From contig JAUWJK010000001.1 of the NCBI GenBank assembly GCA_030607735.1, positions 1 to 62,049 of the forward strand: a DNA stretch of 62,049 nucleotides, written 5' to 3'. Each line of letters begins with the position of its first letter. Within the stretch, counting starts at the first letter, position 1. The translations under genes were made by a program, and so were the position numbers. The DNA is from Candidatus Bathyarchaeota archaeon. GTDB taxonomy: Archaea > Thermoproteota > Bathyarchaeia > Bathyarchaeales > Bathycorpusculaceae. The notes under the pieces were generated by a model, which worked only from the letters and a program-made list of their open reading frames with translations, did no database searches and was not told the DNA's origin. Below, piece by piece: positions 30,842-62,049 of this stretch.

Positions 30842-31349
30842 ATCTAAGTGGATTTTTGATTTTGATGGCAATAAAGGAACAATTGTTCCTGTGGTTCTTG
30901 CAATAATTTTTATTTGCAGTCTCTTGATCGGATATTATTTGTTATCAAATGCTCCACCAGAAGGTTTTTCATCAATATATATTTTAGATGCACAAAAAAA
31001 GACAGAGTCGTATCCTGATTTCTTAATTATTAATGAAAATAACACTTTCAATGTAAATGTTGGAGTAGAAAATCATATGGGTAAAAAACAATCTTATGAA
31101 ATCCAACAAAAAATAACAAAAGATCCGATTTTAATATTCCCTATTAAAGAAAATCCAGAAAAAACCTACACTAGAACCTTAGAATCTCAAGAAACATGGG
31201 AAATATCGGTAACCACTACAATAGATAATCCAGGTAACTATTCATTAGTTTTTGAACTATACTTAAAGGACGATATAGAACTCATCGATGAGAATACAAA
31301 ACCCGTTAATTACGTTCTTTTGAACATAGAAGTGGATGTTAGGAGCTAA
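30834..31349 (+). CDS. DUF1616-domain membrane-anchored protein
   Basis: 171 residues with one membrane helix (about 17-38, VPVVLAIIFICSLLIGYYLL) and an extracellular domain of beta strands. The segment GFSSIYILDAQKKTESYP and the following ENNTFNVNVGVENHMGK match, as I recall it, the DUF1616 pattern found next to archaeal glycosylation genes. NxT/S sequons (ENNT, PGNYS) in the outer domain could themselves be glycosylated. It overlaps the GT2 gene by 8 bases, so the two are co-translated, and converges with a 4-base overlap on the radical SAM gene after it. Confidence 0.75.
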   Translation: MSKSKWIFDFDGNKGTIVPVVLAIIFICSLLIGYYLLSNAPPEGFSSIYILDAQKKTESYPDFLIINENNTFNVNVGVENHMGKKQSYEIQQKITKDPILIFPIKENPEKTYTRTLESQETWEISVTTTIDNPGNYSLVFELYLKDDIELIDENTKPVNYVLLNIEVDVRS

Positions 31350-32821
31350 GATTTATTAACAGTTTTCTTTTTTGAAACATAATCTTTCTCAGTTTCAATT
31401 CGATGAATATTATTGTATGCACAAAATGGGATTAGTTTTAGATCTGGAGTGGCATAATGTACCACACATCTTTCAACTCGATTCACATCAAAAGTATAGC
31501 GATCCATAAATGCCATACTTCCCAGCAAAAAAATTCTCCGGCGTAAGTGCCCTAACGATTCATAAGAGGGAGCGATATGCATCTTCAAAATTGCTTTCAT
31601 CAAAGTAAAAAAACCAATTTCTTTAGTAACTAAAGGCCAATTTAATGAAAGCACAGAAGCAAAAAATAACGACGAAAGAATAGATAGCCTTCCTTTGGAT
31701 TCAACTTTGGTTGCCACTTTCTGAATATTCTGGAAGAATTTTTTAAAGTTTACAAAATGATTTATTGGGATAATTTTCCCATTTTTTGAAACATAAATCC
31801 AATTCACTAGACCACACTGAGGACTACAGGAAAATAGTGGCCAAGGTTTTTTCATGAATTGTCTCATAATTTTTATTGGAGAAACCATTATTGACAATGG
31901 GAAGAAGTCTGTGGCTTTGATTTCGTGGTTGGTTTGGGATTCAACTTCTTCTGCAAAATGCCAATCTCTCCATGATTCTCTTAGAGGATTGCCAGTTGCA
32001 CGACCAGTGAAAGCAATTGGTTGGAAAATTATTCCGCGTATAATATCCGAGTTCTGGGCAGCAAATTTGATTATAGCTCCAATTTCATCATCATTAAATC
32101 CGCGCATTAAGGTGTTAACCAGAATTATTTCTATATCATATTTGCGACAGTTCTTAATCGCTTCATATTTTGTTTGCAGTAGTTTTTGTCCTCTCACCTC
32201 TTCGTAGAATGCATCAGTAAAACTATCAAATTGAAGATATACTATATTCAATCCTTTTTCTTTGAGGTTACGAGCCAAATCTGGTGATTTAGCGAGTTTA
32301 GTTCCGTTGGTTGCCAAGATTGTCATGAACTTAAGTTTGTGTGCGATACCTATGATTTCTGGCATGTCATCTCGCTCTAGAGGTTCTCCTCCAGAAAAAA
32401 GCAGAGCTGGAGGTTTGGGATTGCGAGAATTTAGAAATTTTAAGATTTTTTCTATTTCATTTTTTGAAGGTTCATAACCCACTTCATGTTCTGGAAAGGT
32501 TGAAAAACAAACAGAACATGTCAGGTCACATCGTTTGGTAACATCGATAACACCGATTACTGTCTCTGAAACGTGGTCATCGCAAGAAGTGCAATCATGT
32601 GGACATTTTTCAGAACCTTTAGGAATAGTCGGATCTTGTATTTTTTTGAAAAAATCAAATTGTTCAGAGAAATTAAAAATTTCTGGACTTTGCCAATGAG
32701 TAGCAGAAAAAGATCCATGAGTCTTACAAGTCTTGGTAATTATTATTTTTCCATTCTCATTTTTTAACTCAGCCGGTATTTTTTTGAGACATATTGGACA
32801 TATACTAACTGTCTTAGTCAT
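31346..32821 (-). CDS. Radical SAM enzyme resembling tetraether lipid synthase (Tes)
   Basis: 491 residues. A rubredoxin-like N-terminus (C8xxC11 and C32), a second cluster CPHDCTSC (73-80) and the radical SAM CxxxCxxC at 98-105 (CDLTCSVC) precede SGGEPLERDD, and the C-terminus has CSPQC and CVVHYATPDLKLIPFC. This arrangement matches my recollection of archaeal Tes (the MJ0619 group), which joins two archaeol tails through a C-C bond to make tetraether lipid. The stop codon of the geranylgeranyl transferase overlaps the start (4 bases), linking it to lipid synthesis. Other members of this radical SAM group are uncharacterised, so lipid tail coupling is likely but not certain. Confidence 0.7.
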   Translation of the reverse strand: MTKTVSICPICLKKIPAELKNENGKIIITKTCKTHGSFSATHWQSPEIFNFSEQFDFFKKIQDPTIPKGSEKCPHDCTSCDDHVSETVIGVIDVTKRCDLTCSVCFSTFPEHEVGYEPSKNEIEKILKFLNSRNPKPPALLFSGGEPLERDDMPEIIGIAHKLKFMTILATNGTKLAKSPDLARNLKEKGLNIVYLQFDSFTDAFYEEVRGQKLLQTKYEAIKNCRKYDIEIILVNTLMRGFNDDEIGAIIKFAAQNSDIIRGIIFQPIAFTGRATGNPLRESWRDWHFAEEVESQTNHEIKATDFFPLSIMVSPIKIMRQFMKKPWPLFSCSPQCGLVNWIYVSKNGKIIPINHFVNFKKFFQNIQKVATKVESKGRLSILSSLFFASVLSLNWPLVTKEIGFFTLMKAILKMHIAPSYESLGHLRRRIFLLGSMAFMDRYTFDVNRVERCVVHYATPDLKLIPFCAYNNIHRIETEKDYVSKKKTVNKS

Positions 32822-50725: not shown

Positions 50726-52153
50726 ATGCTTATTACACTTATTAACCCTCCATCCCCACGTGGGGCACCATCAGCTCGATTCATACCACTTGGTTTAGGT
50801 TACTTGGTAGCTTATCTTGAAAAGAACCATTTTGAAGTAAATGTTATTGATTACCAAACCAAAGAAATTACAAAGCAAGAATTAGTAACTGAACTTTCTA
50901 GAAACCAACCCAAAATAGTGGGAGTAACAACATCTACTCTAACCTACAAATCTGCAATAGATATTGTAAAAACAGTAAAAGAAACATTACCTAATAGTTA
51001 TACAATTTTAGGGGGACCTCATGTAACAGTTCTAGATGAACAAACCCTAAATGAGTCACCTGAAGTGGATATTATCGTTAGAGGTGAAGGGGAAAATACA
51101 CTTTTAGAAATAGCGGAATATGTAGATAAGCAAAAGATTAAGAAAATCGATAACATTAAAGGAATAACAATTAGAAAACAATCTCGTATAATGAGAACTA
51201 TTGATAAATCTTTTATTAAAGATTTAGATGAATTACCCCATCCAGCTTTTCATCATTTTGATCTCAATAAATATACAATCAGTGGAAAAAAGTATCTTCC
51301 AATTATTACTAGTAGAGGTTGTCCATTTCAATGCACTTTTTGTTTAGCATCAAAAATGTGTGGAACAGGATTTAGGACAAGAAGCCCAGAAAAAGTAGCG
51401 GATGAGTTAGAGTGGCTTAGAGATGTTCATAAAGCTGACATCTTTGCTTTTTATGATGACACCTTCACTTTCGATATGAATAGAGCATACAAAATTTGTG
51501 AGGAGATAAAGAATAGAAATATTGATCTTCCATGGGATTGTAGAACTCGAGTTGATCGAATTAATCCAAGAATATTAGTTAAGATGAGAGAGGCAAACTG
51601 TCAATTGATACATTTTGGTGTTGAATCTGGAAGCCAAAAAATGCTCAATTCGATGAAAAAAGGAACTACTGTAGAGCAAAATGCGAGAGGGATTAAGATG
51701 GCTAAGGAGTCAGGAATAGGGGTGGCAATATCAGTTGTTGTAGGTTATCCTGGTGAGACAAAAGAATTGTTAAAGGAAACTTTTGATTTTATTCGAAAAA
51801 CAGAACCCGACTACGTGTATGTTTGTCAAGCAATCCCTTATCCAGGCACAGAAATGTATAATGAATTAAAAAAGTTAGGGTGGGAAGTATCTAGTGATTG
51901 GGACCGTTATGATGAGCAAACAGCTGTATTTGAAAATCCTCTTTTGTCTCCTCTAGAAATTGATGAAATGAGGGGAAAATTTTATGATGACTTTTTTTCT
52001 CCAACATATTTTCTACGAAAATCTATTAAAAAAGACTTTTATAGCCAAACAATGGCTCATGCGACATTAAATCATTTGTTATGGCGTATTAAGTTTCCAA
52101 AATGGTTTTTTTCCAGTTTCCGAAAATTGGTTCCTAGAAAAGATGAAAGTTAA
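50726..52153 (+). CDS. B12-binding radical SAM enzyme
   Basis: 475 residues. LINPPSPRGAPSARFIPLGL and VTTSTLTYKSAIDIV, LGGPHVTVLD mark the B12-binding part, and the [4Fe-4S] motif is CPFQCTFC at 199-206. FYDDTFTFDMNRAYKI, FGVESGSQKMLNSM and YPGTEMYNELKKLGW follow. It is most like the copy at 56.5-57.9 kb: both continue WDxYDE/WTEYDT, FENPLLSPLEI/FENPNLPSEEL and a YDDFFSPTYFLR/YNNLYSPKYVLR ending. The shared C-terminus implies a common substrate class. Divergent from the amidohydrolase. Confidence 0.83.
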   Translation: MLITLINPPSPRGAPSARFIPLGLGYLVAYLEKNHFEVNVIDYQTKEITKQELVTELSRNQPKIVGVTTSTLTYKSAIDIVKTVKETLPNSYTILGGPHVTVLDEQTLNESPEVDIIVRGEGENTLLEIAEYVDKQKIKKIDNIKGITIRKQSRIMRTIDKSFIKDLDELPHPAFHHFDLNKYTISGKKYLPIITSRGCPFQCTFCLASKMCGTGFRTRSPEKVADELEWLRDVHKADIFAFYDDTFTFDMNRAYKICEEIKNRNIDLPWDCRTRVDRINPRILVKMREANCQLIHFGVESGSQKMLNSMKKGTTVEQNARGIKMAKESGIGVAISVVVGYPGETKELLKETFDFIRKTEPDYVYVCQAIPYPGTEMYNELKKLGWEVSSDWDRYDEQTAVFENPLLSPLEIDEMRGKFYDDFFSPTYFLRKSIKKDFYSQTMAHATLNHLLWRIKFPKWFFSSFRKLVPRKDES

Positions 52154-52191: not shown

Positions 52192-54981
52192 CTATGGCTT
52201 CTTTTTGTGTTTTAAAAAGATTAAAATGCTTCCTATAGCAGCCACTAATATAATTATCGTGATTATAAAAATGAAAACGGATTCAGAGAACAATTCCAAT
52301 TCGGTTGGAGATTCAATAGATACATCAATTGGATTACTTTTAGCTGAAGTGTAGTAACTTTTTGGGGATTCCCAATTAGCTGTGATTATCCAATCTCCAA
52401 TAATTTCTGGGTTGTAAGTGAAGTTGAAGAATCCGTTTGTCGTTGTTGTTGGTAATATTTCAGTAATAGATCCATCAGGTTTTACAAAAGAGAGAACTAT
52501 AGATTGATTGGGGAAGGCTGGATTTATTTGACCAACTCCTGAAATGGATTCTCCTAAAAATAAAGTAGATGAATCTGTTTCAAGAAAAATAGTACTGGTA
52601 GTTGCAGGATTATCTGCATAACAATAAATGTTCCAATCATTATTTCCCACATAAACTCTTCCTTCATAGATAGTTGCACTCGACCAACTATTAGACCCTG
52701 TAGTAATCATTGAAAGCTGTTCACCGTTTGTTGCGTTGAGTATATGAACAGATCGTTGATCAGTTACTATATACAATTTATTATCAGAGTATGTTGGAGA
52801 AACATAAAGTTCATAGCCCAAATAATTGCTCCAAATAGTATTGCCTGTTTCTGAATCTACACAAACTATCGAAAAATGATCAACTAAAAAGACTCTGCCT
52901 TCGTTATATATTGGGGAACTTAGAATAAACTCTCCAGCATTATCATTTCGATACGTCCATTCTACTTCTCCAGTGGAGGTACTTATTGCATGATATTCTT
53001 TTATGTTTGAGGAAGTAAAGACTTTACCTTCAGCAACTGTTGGAGAAGCATGCAAATCAGTTCCTCCCCAAAACACTTCATTATATGGAATTTCCTTTCG
53101 CCATACTAGATTTCCAGTATTTTTGTCCAGTTTATATAAAGCACCTGAATTTGGCTCTTGAGATAGTACATATAATTCTCCATCAGCAATTGCAGGAGAG
53201 GAAGTGATATAACCATCAGTCTGATAGGTCCAAATAATCTCTCCTTTTTCAGAATCTAAACAATACACATTGGAATCTAGAGAACCAACGTAAACTCTGC
53301 CATCAACAATTATTGGAGAAGATCTTAATACCACAGACGCAGCAAAAGTCACTGGAATAGACCCCCCTGCATAAGTTGACCAAATCAGTTTTCCATCAGA
53401 AGAATTAAGACAATAAATGGTTCCATCATCAGGTCCAATGAATACTTTACCATCAACCACTGCAGGCGAGGATTTGATTCGATCATTTGTTTGGAAAGAC
53501 CAAATAAATTTACCAGTCCTAGCATCTAAACAATAGATGGATTTATCCTGAGAGCCAAAATAGACTTTCCCATTTACTAAACTTGGTGAAGAAATAACTG
53601 CGCCTTTAGTTGTGAAATTCCATAAAAGAGATAAAGTGGTTGGTCCGGATTGACCAGTTGCACTATGAGCGGGATCATTTCTATACATAGGCCAAGATTT
53701 TGTACCAATAGCCCATATTTGGTTTATTGTTTCATATTCTTCGCCGGATTCTGTGTCAACACTTCTTGTTACATCTCCTGGAATAAAATACAGATTCCCA
53801 TATGCAATTGCCACAGATTCTCTTGGAGCAAAAGCCTCAATTGGAAGTTTCCATATAACTTTTCCAGTAAAAGCATCTAAACATACAAATTCTGAATCAC
53901 TTTGTTCGGAAGTATAAGACATTTCTTGACCGGTTGTCGCATAAATTTTACCATCGGCTACAGTAGGATTGCCAGGAAAAACTAATGGTCCAGGTCCTTT
54001 ATACTGCCACACTACTTCACCTGTTTCTGCATTAAGGGCATACAAATGTCCATCTCTATTAAGTTCGTACACCATTCCATATGCAGCAGCTGGACCAATG
54101 CTAAAATAACCTTCTTGAGTATTAGGATCGAAAGTCCATAATATCTCACCGGTCAAAGCATCAAAACAGTATAGAGTATTATCGTGCGTACCTCCTCGGA
54201 AGAATTTTCCTTTATAATAAGAACCAGAAAAAAGCATGGCACTTCTTGTTTCGGTATCCCAAAGAGTTTTTCCAGTTTTTGCATCTAATGCCATTTGATG
54301 AGGTTCAAATGATCCAGGGAAGATTATACCATCACCATAATGTACTCCTGAACCAACTATGCCCCCTCCTGGAACATAGGTTGACCAAACTTCTTCAGGT
54401 GGATTTGATGGATTAGAAAAGTCCCAAGCAACAATATACGAATCCTGTTTGGTGTAGAACATTTTTTCCTGGGGACTATAAACATTGGCAACAAAAAGGG
54501 GATCTCCTGTTGCAGAAAAAACATTGCTAGTCCATAATACTTCCCCAGTTTCTATGTTAAAACTGCTATTTCCAACAACAAGGTGGATTTCGTCGATTTT
54601 ATAGACTGCTGGCCAAGGTCCTGGAGCAGGTACAATTGTATTCCATAATATTTCTCCAGTCTCTCTATCGAGGGCGAAAACATTTGTTTTTGTAGTTACA
54701 AATACTTTGCCATTAAAAGCTACGACATAGCTTTGAATACCAGTTATATTAGTCTTCCATAAAATATCGGGTGCTTCTGGAGCAGGTCCAGGTGAGAAAC
54801 GAGTAAAAGATGAATCTCCCTGAAATTGAGGCCACTCATATTGGAGCAAATTTTGCGTATCCTCAGGCTCAAGGTTTAAAGAAGGACCCGATGTACTATC
54901 ATAAAAGTCAGCAATCAAAAAAGAGAATACTAGCAATATACTCAAGACGATTATAACCAAAAGAAGTTTAGGAATTTTCAT
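52192..54981 (-). CDS. Large surface protein with PQQ-like beta-propeller repeats
   Basis: 929 residues from ATG 54981, chosen because CCAGAGGT lies 8 bases upstream and the product starts with a signal/anchor (MKIPKLLLVIIVLSILLVFS). Many repeats of the form VYFGSQDKSIYCLDARTGK and GxIxW build probably two eight-bladed propellers (about 60-440 and 460-810). There follows an Ig-like region and a C-terminal membrane helix with a KHKKKP basic end, as for an exported protein held in the membrane. The propeller fold is of the PQQ-dehydrogenase/BamB type; whether a quinone cofactor is bound is unclear since the propeller is also used for protein binding. A longer in-frame start at 55077 is unlikely. 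Confidence 0.85.
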   Translation of the reverse strand: MKIPKLLLVIIVLSILLVFSFLIADFYDSTSGPSLNLEPEDTQNLLQYEWPQFQGDSSFTRFSPGPAPEAPDILWKTNITGIQSYVVAFNGKVFVTTKTNVFALDRETGEILWNTIVPAPGPWPAVYKIDEIHLVVGNSSFNIETGEVLWTSNVFSATGDPLFVANVYSPQEKMFYTKQDSYIVAWDFSNPSNPPEEVWSTYVPGGGIVGSGVHYGDGIIFPGSFEPHQMALDAKTGKTLWDTETRSAMLFSGSYYKGKFFRGGTHDNTLYCFDALTGEILWTFDPNTQEGYFSIGPAAAYGMVYELNRDGHLYALNAETGEVVWQYKGPGPLVFPGNPTVADGKIYATTGQEMSYTSEQSDSEFVCLDAFTGKVIWKLPIEAFAPRESVAIAYGNLYFIPGDVTRSVDTESGEEYETINQIWAIGTKSWPMYRNDPAHSATGQSGPTTLSLLWNFTTKGAVISSPSLVNGKVYFGSQDKSIYCLDARTGKFIWSFQTNDRIKSSPAVVDGKVFIGPDDGTIYCLNSSDGKLIWSTYAGGSIPVTFAASVVLRSSPIIVDGRVYVGSLDSNVYCLDSEKGEIIWTYQTDGYITSSPAIADGELYVLSQEPNSGALYKLDKNTGNLVWRKEIPYNEVFWGGTDLHASPTVAEGKVFTSSNIKEYHAISTSTGEVEWTYRNDNAGEFILSSPIYNEGRVFLVDHFSIVCVDSETGNTIWSNYLGYELYVSPTYSDNKLYIVTDQRSVHILNATNGEQLSMITTGSNSWSSATIYEGRVYVGNNDWNIYCYADNPATTSTIFLETDSSTLFLGESISGVGQINPAFPNQSIVLSFVKPDGSITEILPTTTTNGFFNFTYNPEIIGDWIITANWESPKSYYTSAKSNPIDVSIESPTELELFSESVFIFIITIIILVAAIGSILIFLKHKKKP

Positions 54982-55206
54982 TTTTTTACCTCTGGAATGA
55001 TAATCTATAACATCAATTCTTTGATATTCAGATAAAAAAAGATTCAATGCCAACATAAACTTTGTGGAGAGCTCCAAAATTTAAAACAAGTTTTGCTAGT
55101 TTAGTAAATCATTGATTAAAATAAGAAACCGCATAATCCTTTTTAAGATGCGAAAAAATTAAGGTATCAAAAGAATTCACAAAGGCAAAAAAAAGGTGTT
55201 TTTTGT

Positions 55207-56280
55207 TTGACAAAAAAAGGTCCCCTATTAATGACTTCTTGGAGGTCAACTGGCGCTTGTAATGCTAGATGCAAATATTGTAATGTTGATGCAACAGGTA
55301 AATGTGCACCACGAGAGTTGACAACAGAAGAAGCTAAACGTTTAGTTGATGAAATCCACAGTTTTGGCGTAAAATGGTTTGGAATAAAAGGTGGAGAACC
55401 TTTAATGAGAGAAGATATTTTTGAGATTGTTGGTTACGCCAAAAGTCTTGGTCTTAATGTTTGTTTATTAACTAATGGTTGTTTTGTCGATGGAGAAATT
55501 TATGACAAACTTGTCGAAAACCAAGTTTGGACTTCAGTCAGTATTGATGGTCCTGAAGATATAAACGATCAGCTAAGAGGTAAAGGCTCTTACAAAAAAG
55601 CTTTGAAGGCTATTCAAAAATTATCAAAGGGTAAAATTCTAAATGGGTTAGCAGCAGCAATTACAAAAGTTAATTATAAACATTTAGATCATGTTGCAGA
55701 ATTGGCAGAAAAATATAATGCTAATTTTGTTTGGTTTAATCATTTGGTTCCCAGTGGAAGAGCAAAAGAAACAATGGAGTTAACTCCAACTCCAGAACAA
55801 TATGAATGGGTTTTAAATCAGATTTGGGATTTGACCTTAAAATATGAAGGAAAATTTGAGATTCATGTTCATTGCCCTCATTATGCACGAGTTGTAAAGC
55901 AGAGAAACCCTGAAAATTTTGATGAATGGTACAAACATAAATTTCATGGTAAATGCACCTATTTTGCTTTTGGTGGATACATTAGCGTAACTGAAAACGG
56001 AGATTTGATACCATGTTTTTATACAGATTTGACACCTGATGAACCTATGATGTTAGGAAACATCAGGAAGAAAACTCTAAGAAAAGCTTGGGAAGAAGTA
56101 AAAGAGTCAAAGTATTATTCAAGTTTTAGAGATCGGTCTCCATTGAAGGGAAAATGTGGAGTCTGTGAATATAAAGACATTTGTGGTGGGTGTAGAAACA
56201 GGTCGTATGCATATACTGGTGATATTTATGAATCTGATCCTGCATGTGCATACATTCCAAAAAAACTTCGTAAAAAATAA
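55207..56280 (+). CDS. Radical SAM/SPASM enzyme, NirJ/AhbC/AhbD-like
   Basis: 357 residues. The cluster motif CNARCKYC is at 18-25 and KGGEPLMREDIFEI follows. The SPASM end has GKCTYFAFGGYISVTENGD, CFYTDL and CGVCEYKDICGGCRNRS, close to the end of the protein at 36.2-37.6 kb (LKGxCxVCxxxDICGGCR). This pattern is found in heme d1 and alternative heme biosynthesis enzymes as well as in peptide-modifying enzymes. Start TTG 55207; ATG 55231 would remove eight residues and is possible. It is divergent from the propeller protein and precedes a B12 radical SAM gene. Confidence 0.82.
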   Translation: MTKKGPLLMTSWRSTGACNARCKYCNVDATGKCAPRELTTEEAKRLVDEIHSFGVKWFGIKGGEPLMREDIFEIVGYAKSLGLNVCLLTNGCFVDGEIYDKLVENQVWTSVSIDGPEDINDQLRGKGSYKKALKAIQKLSKGKILNGLAAAITKVNYKHLDHVAELAEKYNANFVWFNHLVPSGRAKETMELTPTPEQYEWVLNQIWDLTLKYEGKFEIHVHCPHYARVVKQRNPENFDEWYKHKFHGKCTYFAFGGYISVTENGDLIPCFYTDLTPDEPMMLGNIRKKTLRKAWEEVKESKYYSSFRDRSPLKGKCGVCEYKDICGGCRNRSYAYTGDIYESDPACAYIPKKLRKK

Positions 56281-56495
56281 TTATTCTAGTTCACCTTAAA
56301 ATGAAATAGAAAAAACTAAGTAATGTCTAACATATTCTATTGAAGATTTGAAGAGATTGCAATAAAATAAATTATCATCAGATTCGCTCAATACTTATTA
56401 ATAAGACATATACTAAAAAATACAAAATAATACTTTCAATTCAATTGTTCTCTAGGTTCAATATTGTTGGTTTCTTAGAAAATTGGGGTATAAAA

Positions 56496-57905
56496 ATGCA
56501 AAAGGTTGATAAAAAAAAGATTATACTAGTTAATCCTCCTCTCTTAGAAGACAATTCACATCATCCGCTCTTTCCACCATTAGGATTAACATATCTAGCA
56601 GCTGTACTTGAACAAGATGAACATGAAATAAAGATAGCTGATTGTCCGATCAGTAACCTAGATCATAAGAAGTTATCTGCTGAATTATCTTCGTTTCAAC
56701 CAAATATTATCGGCATAACTTCTATGACACCTACAATAAAATCAGCACTTCTGTCAGCTCGAAAAGCAAAGGAAGTTTGTCCTGATGCAACAGTTATCTT
56801 TGGAGGACCACATGCAACTTTTATGGATCATCAAATTCTTGGAAAAGAAAAAGCAGTAGATATAGTTGTGAAAGGAGAAGGTGAATTAACTCTTAAAGAG
56901 CTAGCACAAAATGAAATGATCTCAAAAAATCTTCAAAAAATTAAAGGAATAACGTTTAGAAAAAATGATCAACTTGTATCAACACCAGAAAGACCATATA
57001 TTCAAAATCTTGACGAGTTACCTCGTCCAGCTTATAAATATGTTCCAATGGATAAATATAGGATTCATGGAAAAATTCATTTACCAATAATGACCAGCAG
57101 AGGATGTCCATTTCAATGTTCATTCTGTGTTGCTTCTGAGATATTTGGCGCAAAATTCAGAGCTAGAAGTAGCAATAGTGTAGTAGATGAATTAGAATGG
57201 TTAAAAAATGAGTACGGCGCTAACGCGATATCTTTCCAAGATGATACTTTAACTTTTGATCGTAAGAGAATACTTGATATTTGTACCAAAATTGAAGAAA
57301 GAAAAATTAATCTTCCGTGGGGATGCCAAACTCGAGTAGATCAGGTCGACAAAGAAGTTTTATCTAAAATGAAAAAAGCAAAGTGTAATCTTGTTTCATT
57401 TGGTATCGAGTCAGGCTGTCAAAAGATATTAGAAGCAGTTAAGAAAAAAATTACAATTCCACAAGCTCAAAAGGCCATTAAATGGGCAAAAGATGAAGGA
57501 TTATTTGTAGCTGTATCCACAATTATGGGGTATCCAGGTGAAACAAAGGAAATGATGCATCAAACCCTTGAACTCATCAGGAGAATTGAACCAGATGATG
57601 CATGGTTATGCATAGCAACACCTTATCCAGGTACTGATCTGCGCAGACTGGTGGAAAAAAATGGTTGGAAAATGTCTAATAATTGGACTGAATATGATAC
57701 GATGCATCCTGTCTTTGAAAATCCAAATCTACCTTCTGAAGAACTAGCAGAAATGCGGAAAACGTTTTATAATAATCTGTATTCTCCAAAATATGTTCTT
57801 CGTCAAATAGTAAAGGGATATGTAAAAGGAAATTACTATAATCAATTAATGGCTAAAACGTCAGTAGGATATTTACTCTGGCGAATAAGATCAAGATTTA
57901 GGTAA
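56496..57905 (+). CDS. B12-binding radical SAM enzyme
   Basis: 469 residues from ATG 56496, chosen because the product then begins MQKVDKKKIILVNPP, level with its paralogues; an upstream TTG at 56445 is in frame. LFPPLGLTYLAAVLEQDEHE and FGGPHATFMDHQIL belong to the B12-binding domain, CPFQCSFC at 204-211 to the radical SAM core, with FQDDTLTFDRKRILDI, FGIESGCQKILEAV and YPGTDLRRLVEKNGW. One substitution to note is Trp-Gly-Cys (INLPWGCQTRVDQV) where its paralogues have Trp-Asp-Cys. Substrate unknown. Confidence 0.83.
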   Translation: MQKVDKKKIILVNPPLLEDNSHHPLFPPLGLTYLAAVLEQDEHEIKIADCPISNLDHKKLSAELSSFQPNIIGITSMTPTIKSALLSARKAKEVCPDATVIFGGPHATFMDHQILGKEKAVDIVVKGEGELTLKELAQNEMISKNLQKIKGITFRKNDQLVSTPERPYIQNLDELPRPAYKYVPMDKYRIHGKIHLPIMTSRGCPFQCSFCVASEIFGAKFRARSSNSVVDELEWLKNEYGANAISFQDDTLTFDRKRILDICTKIEERKINLPWGCQTRVDQVDKEVLSKMKKAKCNLVSFGIESGCQKILEAVKKKITIPQAQKAIKWAKDEGLFVAVSTIMGYPGETKEMMHQTLELIRRIEPDDAWLCIATPYPGTDLRRLVEKNGWKMSNNWTEYDTMHPVFENPNLPSEELAEMRKTFYNNLYSPKYVLRQIVKGYVKGNYYNQLMAKTSVGYLLWRIRSRFR

Positions 57906-58049: not shown

Positions 58050-59396
58050 ATGTTATCAGACATTTTTCAAAATCGAACTCTGAGGATTTCAAACATGAAG
58101 AAGTCTACTAGCGATGAAAAAGAATCGAAAATTTATGATTTAAGAGAAAATTGGCCACCGTACACTTATAGAGATTATCCAGACATAAAATCAGAAACAT
58201 ATGATGCGTTTATGGAGTTTCTTTCAACAGAGAACAAATCTGATAGAATTTTAGAACTACAACCTTGGATATCTCTTTGTGCATCAAGATGCACTTTTTG
58301 TTATTATCCTACGTCTGCATTTAATCCTGATATTATCGAACCATACCTAAATGCATTAAAAAAAGAGCTTGAAATGTATGCTGAAACTAATTATATAAAA
58401 ACCAGCAAATTCGATGAGATTGTACTCGGAGGAGGAACACCTAGCGTTCTCAGTGCAGATCAAATAATTGATTTAATTTCATTTTGTGAAAAAAGATTTA
58501 ACACGACAGATGAGTATTTTATTAAAGTTACTTGTTCTTCAAAAACGTTAGAAACAAAAAAACTTGAAAAACTAGCTGAGTATGGAGTTTATCAGGTGGA
58601 TATGGGAGCACAAACTTTTGACGATAAACTTCGAAAACAATTGTGTCTGCCTGATTCTGCACAAAACGTTGAACACACAGTAAATATGGCAAGAAAACTT
58701 GGAATGTGTGTGTGCATAGATTTGATGTATAATATTCCAGGTCAAACAATGGATAGTTGGATTGATACCCTCAAAAAAGCTGTTGAATTAGATGCTGAGA
58801 TTGATTGTTATTCGTTGAATGTATATCCAGATACAGTCCTTGGAAAACAACTAAAGTCTGGAGCTATGCCTCCTCAAGGAGATTCTGAATATGAAAAACA
58901 AATGTATCTAAAAGCGTACGAGTTACTAACCGATTCAGGGTATAGAGCAATTGGACATGATCGTTTTTCCCGGGTTGAGTGGCATTTCAAAGAAAACTGT
59001 CTAAACGGATGGCCTTGGGCTGGAATACTAACAACCGGTTTTGGTTGTATAATGGGCTATTTGCAAAAATTTTCATACACAAACGTTGAAGATGTAAACG
59101 AGTATATCGATATAGTTAATTCAGGTAGATTGCCGATTAATCGACTTTCAGAATCTACTCCAGAAGACATGATGCGTAGAACAATGACTCGTCTATATTT
59201 GAGATTACCAGTTGATAAAATAGAGTTCTTTGAAAAATTTGGCAAATACCCAGAAGATGTTTTCCCAAGGGAGCTTGAGACCCTCAAAAATAAAAAATTA
59301 ATCGAAATTGATGAAAAAGAAATTAGAATAACCAAACTTGGAGATCTCTGGAAAGGAAATATCGCTTGGGAATTTGCCCCTAAATCAACAAAATAA
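58050..59396 (+). CDS. HemN-like radical SAM enzyme
   Basis: 448 residues. The [4Fe-4S] motif is CASRCTFC at 77-84 and GGGTPSVLSADQII, with VDMGAQTFDDKLRK and LMYNIPGQTMDSW, is typical of the HemN/HemW group. The C-terminal winged-helix-like part (LKNKKLIEIDEKEIRITKLG) is present, as in coproporphyrinogen dehydrogenases and class C radical SAM methylases. No heme pathway gene is nearby, so coproporphyrinogen oxidation is only one option; HutW-type heme degradation or methyl transfer are others. Two ATG starts, 58050 and 58095, are possible; the second has GAGGAT 6 bases upstream. Confidence 0.82.
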   Translation: MLSDIFQNRTLRISNMKKSTSDEKESKIYDLRENWPPYTYRDYPDIKSETYDAFMEFLSTENKSDRILELQPWISLCASRCTFCYYPTSAFNPDIIEPYLNALKKELEMYAETNYIKTSKFDEIVLGGGTPSVLSADQIIDLISFCEKRFNTTDEYFIKVTCSSKTLETKKLEKLAEYGVYQVDMGAQTFDDKLRKQLCLPDSAQNVEHTVNMARKLGMCVCIDLMYNIPGQTMDSWIDTLKKAVELDAEIDCYSLNVYPDTVLGKQLKSGAMPPQGDSEYEKQMYLKAYELLTDSGYRAIGHDRFSRVEWHFKENCLNGWPWAGILTTGFGCIMGYLQKFSYTNVEDVNEYIDIVNSGRLPINRLSESTPEDMMRRTMTRLYLRLPVDKIEFFEKFGKYPEDVFPRELETLKNKKLIEIDEKEIRITKLGDLWKGNIAWEFAPKSTK

Positions 59397-59496: not shown

Positions 59497-60165
59497 CTAC
59501 GAATAGCTACCTGGTAGTAATCCATACCACATCATTACTTTAGATATTATTGGTGCTAATACTCCAAGAAGAACATTAGGCAACATAACTAAGTAAAATG
59601 CATAGAATGGATCAGCTTGAGACATCCATGCTCCGAAAGCAATTGTCATGTTAAGAGTAAACTGTAGTACTCCAATAGTTATTCCAGCTGTTAAACCTGC
59701 ACCCAACATTCGTTTGAAATTGAAGGATTTTTCGTTTAGAGCTCCTGCGATATAACCTATGAGTATACCTCCTAGGATATAGTTGCCAATGAAACTTGGG
59801 TCGCGGTATAGATTTTGTGAAGCCCCAAAGAATTCTTGCGAGAAAGCGATATTGTAGCCTGCATAAGCAAGGTAAAACAGGGTTCCCATTATGAATCCTG
59901 TAGCTCCTCCAGCCCACTTATTCCAGATTAAGCCCATGACAAGGGGAATTCCAAACATTACCATCTGAGCCAAGCCGTGAGTAAATATTACAGTGATAAA
60001 GGCCCAGTCCGAAGCACCTTCACCAGTCATCATATCTCCTGCGGGGAACCAGCTGTCAAATGCATCTTTAATTACTGTAGGAAATAGCAATATTATTACA
60101 GCGACAAGAATTGGTACTATGAATCCGTAGATTATCGTTTTTTTACTAAATGGTTGTGTAGACAT
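59497..60165 (-). CDS. Membrane protein of unknown function next to the Rnf-like fusion
   Basis: 222 residues with six hydrophobic segments (about 10-27, 50-75, 84-102, 126-142, 152-172, 187-206). I recognise no family. Features are the aromatic extracytoplasmic loop DAFDSWFPAGDMMTGEGASDW, LIWNKWAGGATGFIMGTLF and a repeated glycine-rich helix pattern. It is 200 bases downstream of the RnfD/FrhB fusion gene on the same strand and could be an extra membrane subunit of that complex, though it is not RnfA, RnfE or RnfG by sequence. ATG at 60165. Confidence 0.6.
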   Translation of the reverse strand: MSTQPFSKKTIIYGFIVPILVAVIILLFPTVIKDAFDSWFPAGDMMTGEGASDWAFITVIFTHGLAQMVMFGIPLVMGLIWNKWAGGATGFIMGTLFYLAYAGYNIAFSQEFFGASQNLYRDPSFIGNYILGGILIGYIAGALNEKSFNFKRMLGAGLTAGITIGVLQFTLNMTIAFGAWMSQADPFYAFYLVMLPNVLLGVLAPIISKVMMWYGLLPGSYS

Positions 60166-60366: not shown

Positions 60367-62049
60367 CTATTTATTCGAATTAGCACGTTTTTTCTTTAGA
60401 ACCGATAGTTTTGTAATTTCTTTCTTCTCTACTTTGTCCTTCAACAGATCAAGTTTTTCCAATAGTTTTTCGCCGGCATCAGATCTCACTATTACAGTTG
60501 AGTATCCTTCTTTGCTTCCTACTGATCCAACAGATATATCAGAATATTTTGCAGTGAAGTCAGGGCAACTGAGGCATCCTTTTTCAACAGCTTTGTTCAA
60601 TTCTTTTACGCTTACCGAGTTTTCCTTTCCGTCAACCTGCACAATGTATTTTCCTTTGCTAATCTGAGTTTTCTCTGCACGATCCAAATCAACACCCAAT
60701 AACCTATTTGTTTCTTCTTTGAGTTTCTCATAATCGAAACATTCGAAACAGAACAGTCCTATCATTGTTAATTCTAGATCTGAAAATTCGTTTAACAGCA
60801 TCTGTTGGATTCTCCTTGCGGCTCGAATCTCACAAGCTTGACCAACTACAGCAATTTTTCGCTTTCCTTTAGCTACCAAGTCTCCAATTTTCGACATCAT
60901 ATTCGCTCGCATGTACTTTGTTCCTTTAGCTTTCAATACTTCATCGACATTTTCAGCTATAACCGCTTCAGCCCAATAGCCATCTGTTCGCTGGACCACT
61001 ATTGCGGAATCAAACAAACCTTTTTCCATACCCGAAACGAGCAATGCAGTTGCTACTCCGCCATCTTGGCCGTCAACCGAACTTTTTGCTGAAAACAAGT
61101 CTGTGTAAACACCAATATTTTCGTCTGCTGTACCTTTCAAGAAATATTGTTCTATTTGTCTTGCTTCTTCTTCCGGTATTGGATAATTGAGTGTATAGCT
61201 TTTAAGATCGATTCTTGAGGGGCAAACAAAGTTACAATTCCCACAACCCATACAGTAGTCAGCATTCAGTTTCATCAGCTTTTTCACGTTTTGTTTGTCA
61301 ACTGCTTCTTTGATCAATATGGGGCTTAGTCGATTGACACATACCCTCATACATGCACCGCACCTTATGCAAAGATAGTTTTTAACAGCGGCGAATTGTT
61401 TGGCTTTCGGAAGCTTTGGTTCATTTTTCTCTTTTTTATAATGCATTATTCCAACTTTATCCAACAACGGCGTAGTTAAATTCATTATCACTAAAGCAAG
61501 TATTGAACCTCCAAAGAATCCCATGGACACTTGAATCAGTATGGTCAATAAACCTAGACCTACACCAAAAATCAATTGCCCCAGATATGTCACCGGAGTA
61601 GTAGCTGGGTCTGTAGCCATAAAGAATGCTAAGAATATTGAACTACCAATGAACAAGTGGAATATGACTCTCAGGAGAGGATCAGTATCCCCATAGACAA
61701 ATCCTAATACAAGCGCTAATACTGCAATAGTTACTAGATAAGAAACAGTTATTCTCCATTTAATGTATTTTCGTGCAATAACGAAAAGTGCAATTCCAAC
61801 CGCTATTACTGCTATGCTTGAAACTCCGCCTGCCCATCCGTGCCATTTTTGAACAAGTAATATTTGAACTAGTTCAGATTGAGTGACTGCAGTTGTCAAT
61901 GTACTAGCAGGATCTGCAAAACATGTTTGCATATATTGAGCAAAGCCTTGTAGACCATTACCAAGTATTGGATTAAACCCATACCCGATAGGTCCCGCTA
62001 ATGATGGGACGCCTAACATACCTGTTACTAAATGGTCTTTAGCAAGTAA
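60367..62049 (-). CDS. RnfD/NqrB-like membrane domain fused to dicluster ferredoxin and FrhB-type domain, partial
   Basis: The frame runs into the window edge (an ATG at 62019 is only internal), so the N-terminus is missing. Counting from that ATG: residues 1-190 are membrane helices of the RnfD/NqrB type, with HLFIGSSIFLAFFMATDPAT (120-139). Two [4Fe-4S] motifs follow, with cysteines 217, 220, 223, 227 and 256, 259, 262, 266. From about 300, VDGQDGGVATALLVSGMEKG, KYMRANMMSKIGDL, VGQACEIRA, CLSCPDFTAKYSDISVGSVG form a domain like FrhB, the F420/FAD subunit of F420 hydrogenase and dehydrogenases. Inferred role: membrane electron transfer between F420 (or ferredoxin) and an ion-pumping Rnf-like complex. 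I know of no such single-chain fusion for certain. Confidence 0.8.
   Translation of the reverse strand, partial: LLAKDHLVTGMLGVPSLAGPIGYGFNPILGNGLQGFAQYMQTCFADPASTLTTAVTQSELVQILLVQKWHGWAGGVSSIAVIAVGIALFVIARKYIKWRITVSYLVTIAVLALVLGFVYGDTDPLLRVIFHLFIGSSIFLAFFMATDPATTPVTYLGQLIFGVGLGLLTILIQVSMGFFGGSILALVIMNLTTPLLDKVGIMHYKKEKNEPKLPKAKQFAAVKNYLCIRCGACMRVCVNRLSPILIKEAVDKQNVKKLMKLNADYCMGCGNCNFVCPSRIDLKSYTLNYPIPEEEARQIEQYFLKGTADENIGVYTDLFSAKSSVDGQDGGVATALLVSGMEKGLFDSAIVVQRTDGYWAEAVIAENVDEVLKAKGTKYMRANMMSKIGDLVAKGKRKIAVVGQACEIRAARRIQQMLLNEFSDLELTMIGLFCFECFDYEKLKEETNRLLGVDLDRAEKTQISKGKYIVQVDGKENSVSVKELNKAVEKGCLSCPDFTAKYSDISVGSVGSKEGYSTVIVRSDAGEKLLEKLDLLKDKVEKKEITKLSVLKKKRANSNK

Follow-up and report, generated by a model that had tools for sequence, protein, structure and literature searches.

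In the solved Rnf complex, the two [4Fe-4S] clusters of RnfC link the riboflavin of RnfD with the FMN of RnfC (PMC12174285). The closest known kind of single-protein arrangement is found in a bacterial Nqr/Rnf-like system, in which one chain holds both an NqrB/RnfD membrane domain and an NqrF-type NAD-binding domain (PMC8238504, PMC10979944). These proteins, too, lack the covalent FMN site, and non-covalent flavin binding has been suggested for them (PMC10979944); one-way electron export has been proposed for the system. FrhB-type domains pair with a wide range of partners (PMC9012536); in the FrhB/FpoF/Fsr family and in the F420-reducing CODH and Fwd of Ethanoperedens (8riu, 8rja) they form a plug-in F420 module carrying FAD and [4Fe-4S], which in the FrhB/FpoF/Fsr family often adjoins a small ferredoxin domain. 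Published genomes of Bathyarchaeia encode an Fpo-like complex that lacks FpoF/O, and the redox partner of F420H2 has been called unclear (PMC8407382, PMC7886697). The Bathy-6 archaea of termites were described as having no RnfABCDEG and an unclear F420H2 source (PMC7886697), while RnfB-like matches as well as isolated RnfC and RnfD matches were reported in Bathyarchaeota, the latter two without explanation (PMC9534799).

The stretch of DNA analyzed here, referred to as the window, is a contig of 62,049 nucleotides from a Candidatus Bathyarchaeota archaeon (JAUWJK010000001.1). It ends within a gene that joins an RnfD-type membrane domain, two [4Fe-4S] clusters and an FrhB domain in one polypeptide. 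No report of an RnfD-FrhB fusion was found in a literature search, which missed most subscription journals. Like the bacterial Nqr/Rnf-like proteins, the fusion combines an RnfD-type membrane domain with a cytosolic input domain at the C-terminus of one polypeptide, and the RnfD flavinylation site is lost. Unlike them, it is archaeal, its input is an FrhB domain attached via an RnfC-type dicluster instead of the NAD-binding domain PF00175, which is absent in Pfam scans of the fusions, and its genome holds no NqrC/RnfG partner, FMN_bind domain or ApbE. With the Rnf complex (RnfABCDGE) it shares the RnfD fold and the C-terminal dicluster of RnfC, and some relatives retain a full RnfC beside RnfD, whereas RnfA/E, RnfG, ApbE and the covalent FMN site are missing and FrhB appears to replace the NADH/FMN module of RnfC. 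It uses the same kind of FrhB module with an adjoining ferredoxin domain as the FrhB/FpoF/Fsr family but differs in being fused to an RnfD membrane domain and in lacking a partner of the hydrogenase, sulfite reductase or complex I type.

Architecture of the fusion gene

The gene and its parts are located as follows.

60367..62049, minus strand: 5'-truncated RnfD-[4Fe-4S]2-FrhB fusion gene (560 codons in the window, about 145 more missing past the contig end)
61441..62049, minus strand: C-terminal half of the RnfD/NqrB membrane domain (PF03116, E=1.2e-30; conservation in 45-48 sequences)
61204..61392, minus strand: dicluster [4Fe-4S] domain, homologous to the RnfC C-terminal domain (TIGR01945 rnfC, E=9e-14; CxxCxxCxxxC motifs; tail comparison)
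60415..61152, minus strand: FrhB-type FAD/[4Fe-4S] domain (PF04422 and PF04432), F420-type input module (Pfam, NCBIfam and PDB sequence matches)

Since the window is the entire contig, the open reading frame is open at its 5' end; the contig terminates at 62049, inside the gene, in agreement with the initial annotation. About 5 of the 10 RnfD helices, i.e. only the second half of the domain, lie within the window, and the missing N-terminal part was found nowhere else in the same assembly, an empty search that alone proves little. The initial annotation had read the protein as RnfD, two [4Fe-4S] clusters and FrhB in succession, and had named an RnfD/NqrB match of the N-terminal half and profile searches for Fer4 and FrhB_FdhB_N/C as tests. 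Pfam and NCBIfam profiles confirm all three parts in this order. Above the curated Pfam cut-offs, PF03116 matches residues 57-199 of the window reading frame (E=1.2e-30), Fer4_7 residues 227-279 (E=3.3e-8), PF04422 residues 326-385 (E=3.1e-14) and PF04432 residues 397-543 (E=5.6e-36), the bit scores for FrhB_FdhB_N and _C being 53.3 and 124.1 versus cut-offs of 22 and 23.3. NCBIfam models for rnfD/rsxD/nqrB match the first part and those for F420-reducing hydrogenase beta and FpoF the last. The iron-sulfur part aligns to positions 353-423 of the 435 of the TIGR01945 rnfC model; a full RnfC (RnfC_N, 51K and Fer4) was not detected in the fusion, which has only the Fer4 tail.

The sequence strings quoted previously are all present, with FFMATDPAT at residue 142, GQDGGVATALL at 327 and CPDFTAKYSDISVGSVG at 495. 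The two CxxCxxCxxxC motifs are CIRCGACMRVC (residue 227) and CMGCGNCNFVC (residue 266), and the FrhB part has conserved cysteines at residues 406, 434, 492 and 495. From the roughly ten hydrophobic segments of the RnfD part, the C-terminal domains are predicted to be cytosolic. In an AlphaFold model (42-row alignment, mean pLDDT 71, linkers poorly placed; pLDDT 43 in a single-sequence run) the RnfD part folds like 9eri_D and 7zc6_D and the FrhB part like 8riu_B, 7np8 and 6qgr_B.

Occurrence in other genomes

Among 257 genomes scanned from the class Bathyarchaeia, a group of mostly uncultured archaea, five encode the fusion: the window (truncated), Candidatus Bathyarchaeota CSMAG_1362 (G031; L034/L054), E44_bin4 (G145; L055), SRBZ_4 (G174; L066) and G173. 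The four further genomes encode complete fusions of 706-752 amino acids. The initial annotation had raised the possibility that separate rnfD and frhB genes were joined by an assembly error, and the truncation of the window gene by the contig end could be taken in its favor. Since four other genomes have the whole protein, the fusion is not an assembly error: the same junction recurs with open frames in five independent assemblies, so that the probability of a chimera is practically nil. The 706-residue homologue in CSMAG_1362 has an uninterrupted frame and is 72% identical over residues 25-558, the G174 and G173 fusions sit well inside contigs of 460-530 kb, and Pfam confirmed the PF03116, Fer4 and FrhB domains in L055, L066 and L134. 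RnfD-type PF03116 proteins are encoded in 56 of the 257 genomes, and among 398 genomes sampled from the phylum, RnfD of the present type was found only in the order of the window.

Three architectures in one genomic slot

The commonest gene order around approximately 45 RnfD genes is a divergent radical SAM gene (c0), a form of RnfD, a membrane protein gene (c4) and a convergent radical SAM gene (c5). The RnfD slot is filled in three ways: by RnfD plus an intact separate RnfC gene (Bathycorpusculum and relatives), by RnfD carrying just the C-terminal dicluster of RnfC (most other genomes) or by RnfD with the RnfC-type dicluster and FrhB (five genomes). The separate RnfC scores 401 bits with TIGR01945 versus a cut-off of 246, and its gene overlaps rnfD by 4 nucleotides in 16 of 17 cases. 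Given these three forms in one slot, the NADH-type input module, i.e. the NADH/FMN module of RnfC, appears to have been exchanged for an F420-type one. The proposal that an electron-input module has been attached to an RnfD-type membrane subunit is thus borne out, with relatives holding RnfC separately in the same slot.

In the genomes tested, the overlapping pair of RnfD and canonical RnfC (L082-L097, L100) is not accompanied by RnfA/E or RnfG. It is a candidate two-gene NADH-type conduit, for which no earlier report was found, and is present in termite-gut Bathyarchaeia (cf. PMC7886697).

From the motif YP..EE.....E..FL.G..DE..GVY onward, the fusion aligns with a Fer2-Fer4-FrhB protein (L047) of the same genomes. 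The FrhB parts are about 60% identical, and this protein is a probable sister or source family, differing in that it is soluble, with a NuoG-like N-terminus and no membrane domain. In L047 (4453-8290), it adjoins NuoF-like and NuoE-like genes of the same genome; it is probably a soluble F420/NAD(P)/ferredoxin oxidoreductase and a candidate for bifurcation.

In trees, the FrhB halves of all the fusions group together (support 91/92), whereas monophyly of the RnfD halves is rejected (p-AU 1e-5), so that the FeS-FrhB module must have been lost or transferred repeatedly. The RnfD part of the window is nearest to a relative without FrhB (L059, 83-84% in two segments), and its iron-sulfur part to the fused L054 (82%). 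These conflicting trees speak against a simple linear history from RnfD plus RnfC via RnfD-FeS to the fusion. Either an old fusion suffered many losses of FrhB, or the Fe-S/FrhB end was transferred between genomes, as judged from the trees, in which the outgroup branch is very long and the root too distant to order the forms.

Loss of the remaining Rnf complex and of the covalent FMN site

Searches of 19 genomes with the RnfD type, 12 of them of high quality, detected their controls but neither RnfA/RnfE (PF02508), RnfG/FMN_bind (PF04205) nor ApbE. The initial annotation had looked to rnfA/E/G-like neighbors beyond the window; its contig ends there, and the fusions on continuing contigs (L134, L135) have no rnf genes beside them. 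The RnfD parts score 107-148 bits with PF03116 versus a cut-off of 27.7 and, at 89.5-101.6 bits, do not reach the cut-off of 207 of the RnfD subfamily model TIGR01946. Two bacterial proteins (L112:9475-11877, L103:10222-11883) have PF03116 joined to a C-terminal FMN_bind (RnfG) domain.

The covalent-FMN motif [ST]xATPL is kept in five bacterial RnfD proteins, and the aligned threonine is lost in all six Bathyarchaeia RnfD aligned; an SGAT-type pattern gave only two off-site matches in the Bathyarchaeia RnfD set. The bacterial motif aligns to an extracytoplasmic loop of about 60 residues, lacking this threonine in Bathyarchaeia RnfD, that is flanked by the invariant His157 and His217 and contains the near-invariant Cys190 (L034 numbering; 45-48 sequences). 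The window counterparts of these lineage-specific residues are His 6, Cys 43 and His 70. As a guess from this conservation, the histidines and cysteine around the lost FMN loop might form a new cofactor site.

The FrhB module and F420

The best PDB sequence matches of the FrhB part are the beta subunits of the F420-dependent Fsr and Frh, and its four conserved cysteines align with those of the solved Frh and Fsr. FrhB-type domains serve non-F420 enzymes as well, one of which, HCAR (5dqr), is among the matches, and the FrhB/FpoF equivalog cut-offs of NCBIfam are not reached (186.6 vs 269, 155.4 vs 331.5 and 151.6 vs 475 bits). The F420 ligase CofE is encoded in 16 of 16 host genomes tested, the match in G031, an incomplete genome, being only weak. 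We infer from these matches that the domain is probably specific for F420. Use of ferredoxin or another donor would fit the many partners of FrhB-type domains (PMC9012536) and the missed equivalog cut-offs; it is rather unlikely, given that the closest solved relatives are F420 enzymes and that the hosts encode CofE.

Neighboring genes

The following genes lie near the fusion gene.

59497..60165, minus strand: c4, membrane protein with six helices and without a known family; first gene downstream of the fusion and, from co-occurrence, a candidate partner
58050..59396, plus strand: c5, HutW/HemW/HemN-like radical SAM protein, conserved convergent neighbor (profiles, loci)
56445..57905, plus strand: c2, B12-binding radical SAM protein (BchE/HpnJ-like, below equivalog cut-offs)
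55207..56280, plus strand: SPASM radical SAM protein of the c0 family (AhbD/NirJ-like, below equivalog cut-offs)
52192..55077, minus strand: c6, membrane-anchored PQQ-type beta-propeller, predicted extracytoplasmic (PF13570/PF13360; two strong terminal hydrophobic segments)
50726..52153, plus strand: second B12-binding radical SAM protein (c2)

The c4 family has no convincing match among Pfam or PDB profiles. Across the 257 genomes, c4 and RnfD occur together in 52, RnfD only in 4, c4 only in 10 and neither in 191; because the genomes are related, a p-value for this association should not be read at face value. A WNxWAGG motif is strictly conserved in c4 and its orthologues, and weaker paralogues exist elsewhere in the genomes. 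The c0 and c5 proteins are nearest to AhbD/NirJ and HutW/HemW, respectively, both far below the equivalog cut-offs. Tandem pairs of multi-helix membrane proteins, each of about 770 residues (weak DUF6798), recur by the RnfD locus (L036:2371-7010, L037, L053 and others).

The window also contains a corrinoid island (21466-57905) with two CobS, a CobT-like protein, CbiB, a CobY-like protein, a CobD-like aminotransferase, a BtuCD-type ABC transporter and at least five B12-binding radical SAM genes; the second CobS, the CobT-like protein and the transporter were named by reading the sequence only. The tetraether lipid synthase Tes (31346-32821) scores just above its cut-off.

Proposed function

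The reading that we moderately favor is that a repurposed orphan RnfD, with an F420-type input on the cytosolic side, serves as a membrane electron conduit made of one polypeptide and not as an Rnf ion pump. A conduit is the more probable since the rest of the pump is lost and the protein carries FeS clusters and an F420-type flavin domain instead. The domain order with FrhB in the RnfC slot, seen in five independent cases, and the absence of the other Rnf subunits and ApbE together with the covalent-FMN site are established at the level of sequence; F420 specificity, the direction of electron flow, the retention of riboflavin and the acceptor are inferences. The fusion keeps the cluster bridge of RnfC, with the FAD domain of FrhB at the place of the RnfC FMN domain. 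Hydride from F420H2 would be passed to the FAD of the FrhB domain and electrons would move singly via the FrhB [4Fe-4S] cluster to the pair of [4Fe-4S] clusters in the RnfC-derived tail, then to a non-covalent flavin in the riboflavin site of RnfD and finally to an acceptor at the membrane or on its other side, c4 being the likeliest partner. The path from F420H2 via FeS to the RnfD flavin is the most likely one because of the Fsr/Frh matches, the model folds, the four cysteines and CofE. Against an F420 input, most relatives (RnfD-FeS only) have no FrhB; the donor may therefore differ or act in trans.

The F420- or ferredoxin-linked ion pump put forward in the initial annotation, a variant of Rnf, found no support. 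The RnfD fold is kept in the AlphaFold comparison and RnfD/NqrB itself has been proposed as the Rnf/NQR ion channel (PMC12174285), but neither the redox coupling parts RnfA/E and RnfG nor ApbE turned up in the 19 genomes tested and the covalent FMN site is gone, which makes a pump improbable. Somewhat less doubtful, if still unlikely, is a role as electron donor to adjacent cytosolic or membrane-acting radical-SAM/corrinoid enzymes that modify tetrapyrroles, lipids or cofactors, with RnfD as an anchor that perhaps draws on the membrane potential to bring the electrons to a lower potential. A divergent c0 gene neighbors 27 of approximately 45 loci, c4-c5 come next in 15, and the window holds CobS, CobY-like, CobD-like, CbiB, Tes and several B12 radical SAM genes. 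Bathyarchaeia, however, encode many extracellular PQQ proteins and very numerous radical-SAM enzymes (PMC11697101), so that nearness to such genes is weak evidence, and a conduit spanning the membrane is not needed for cytosolic delivery.

Beyond the favored conduit, it is conceivable, though we hold this only tentatively, that the protein represents a new class of F420H2-dependent transmembrane carrier. The covalent FMN of RnfD would be swapped for a cofactor near the two invariant histidines and the near-invariant cysteine, electrons would be exported or else imported from extracellular quinoproteins, and a single slot would take either an NADH input (RnfC) or an F420 input (FrhB).

Implications for Bathyarchaeia

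The RnfD-FrhB fusion provides a concrete candidate for F420 chemistry at the membrane of these very abundant archaea. The three slot architectures illustrate how a subunit of a redox pump can be pared down and then re-plugged to a different electron carrier. If true, an F420H2-dependent RnfD carrier would be the missing membrane link to the F420 pool of Bathyarchaeia.
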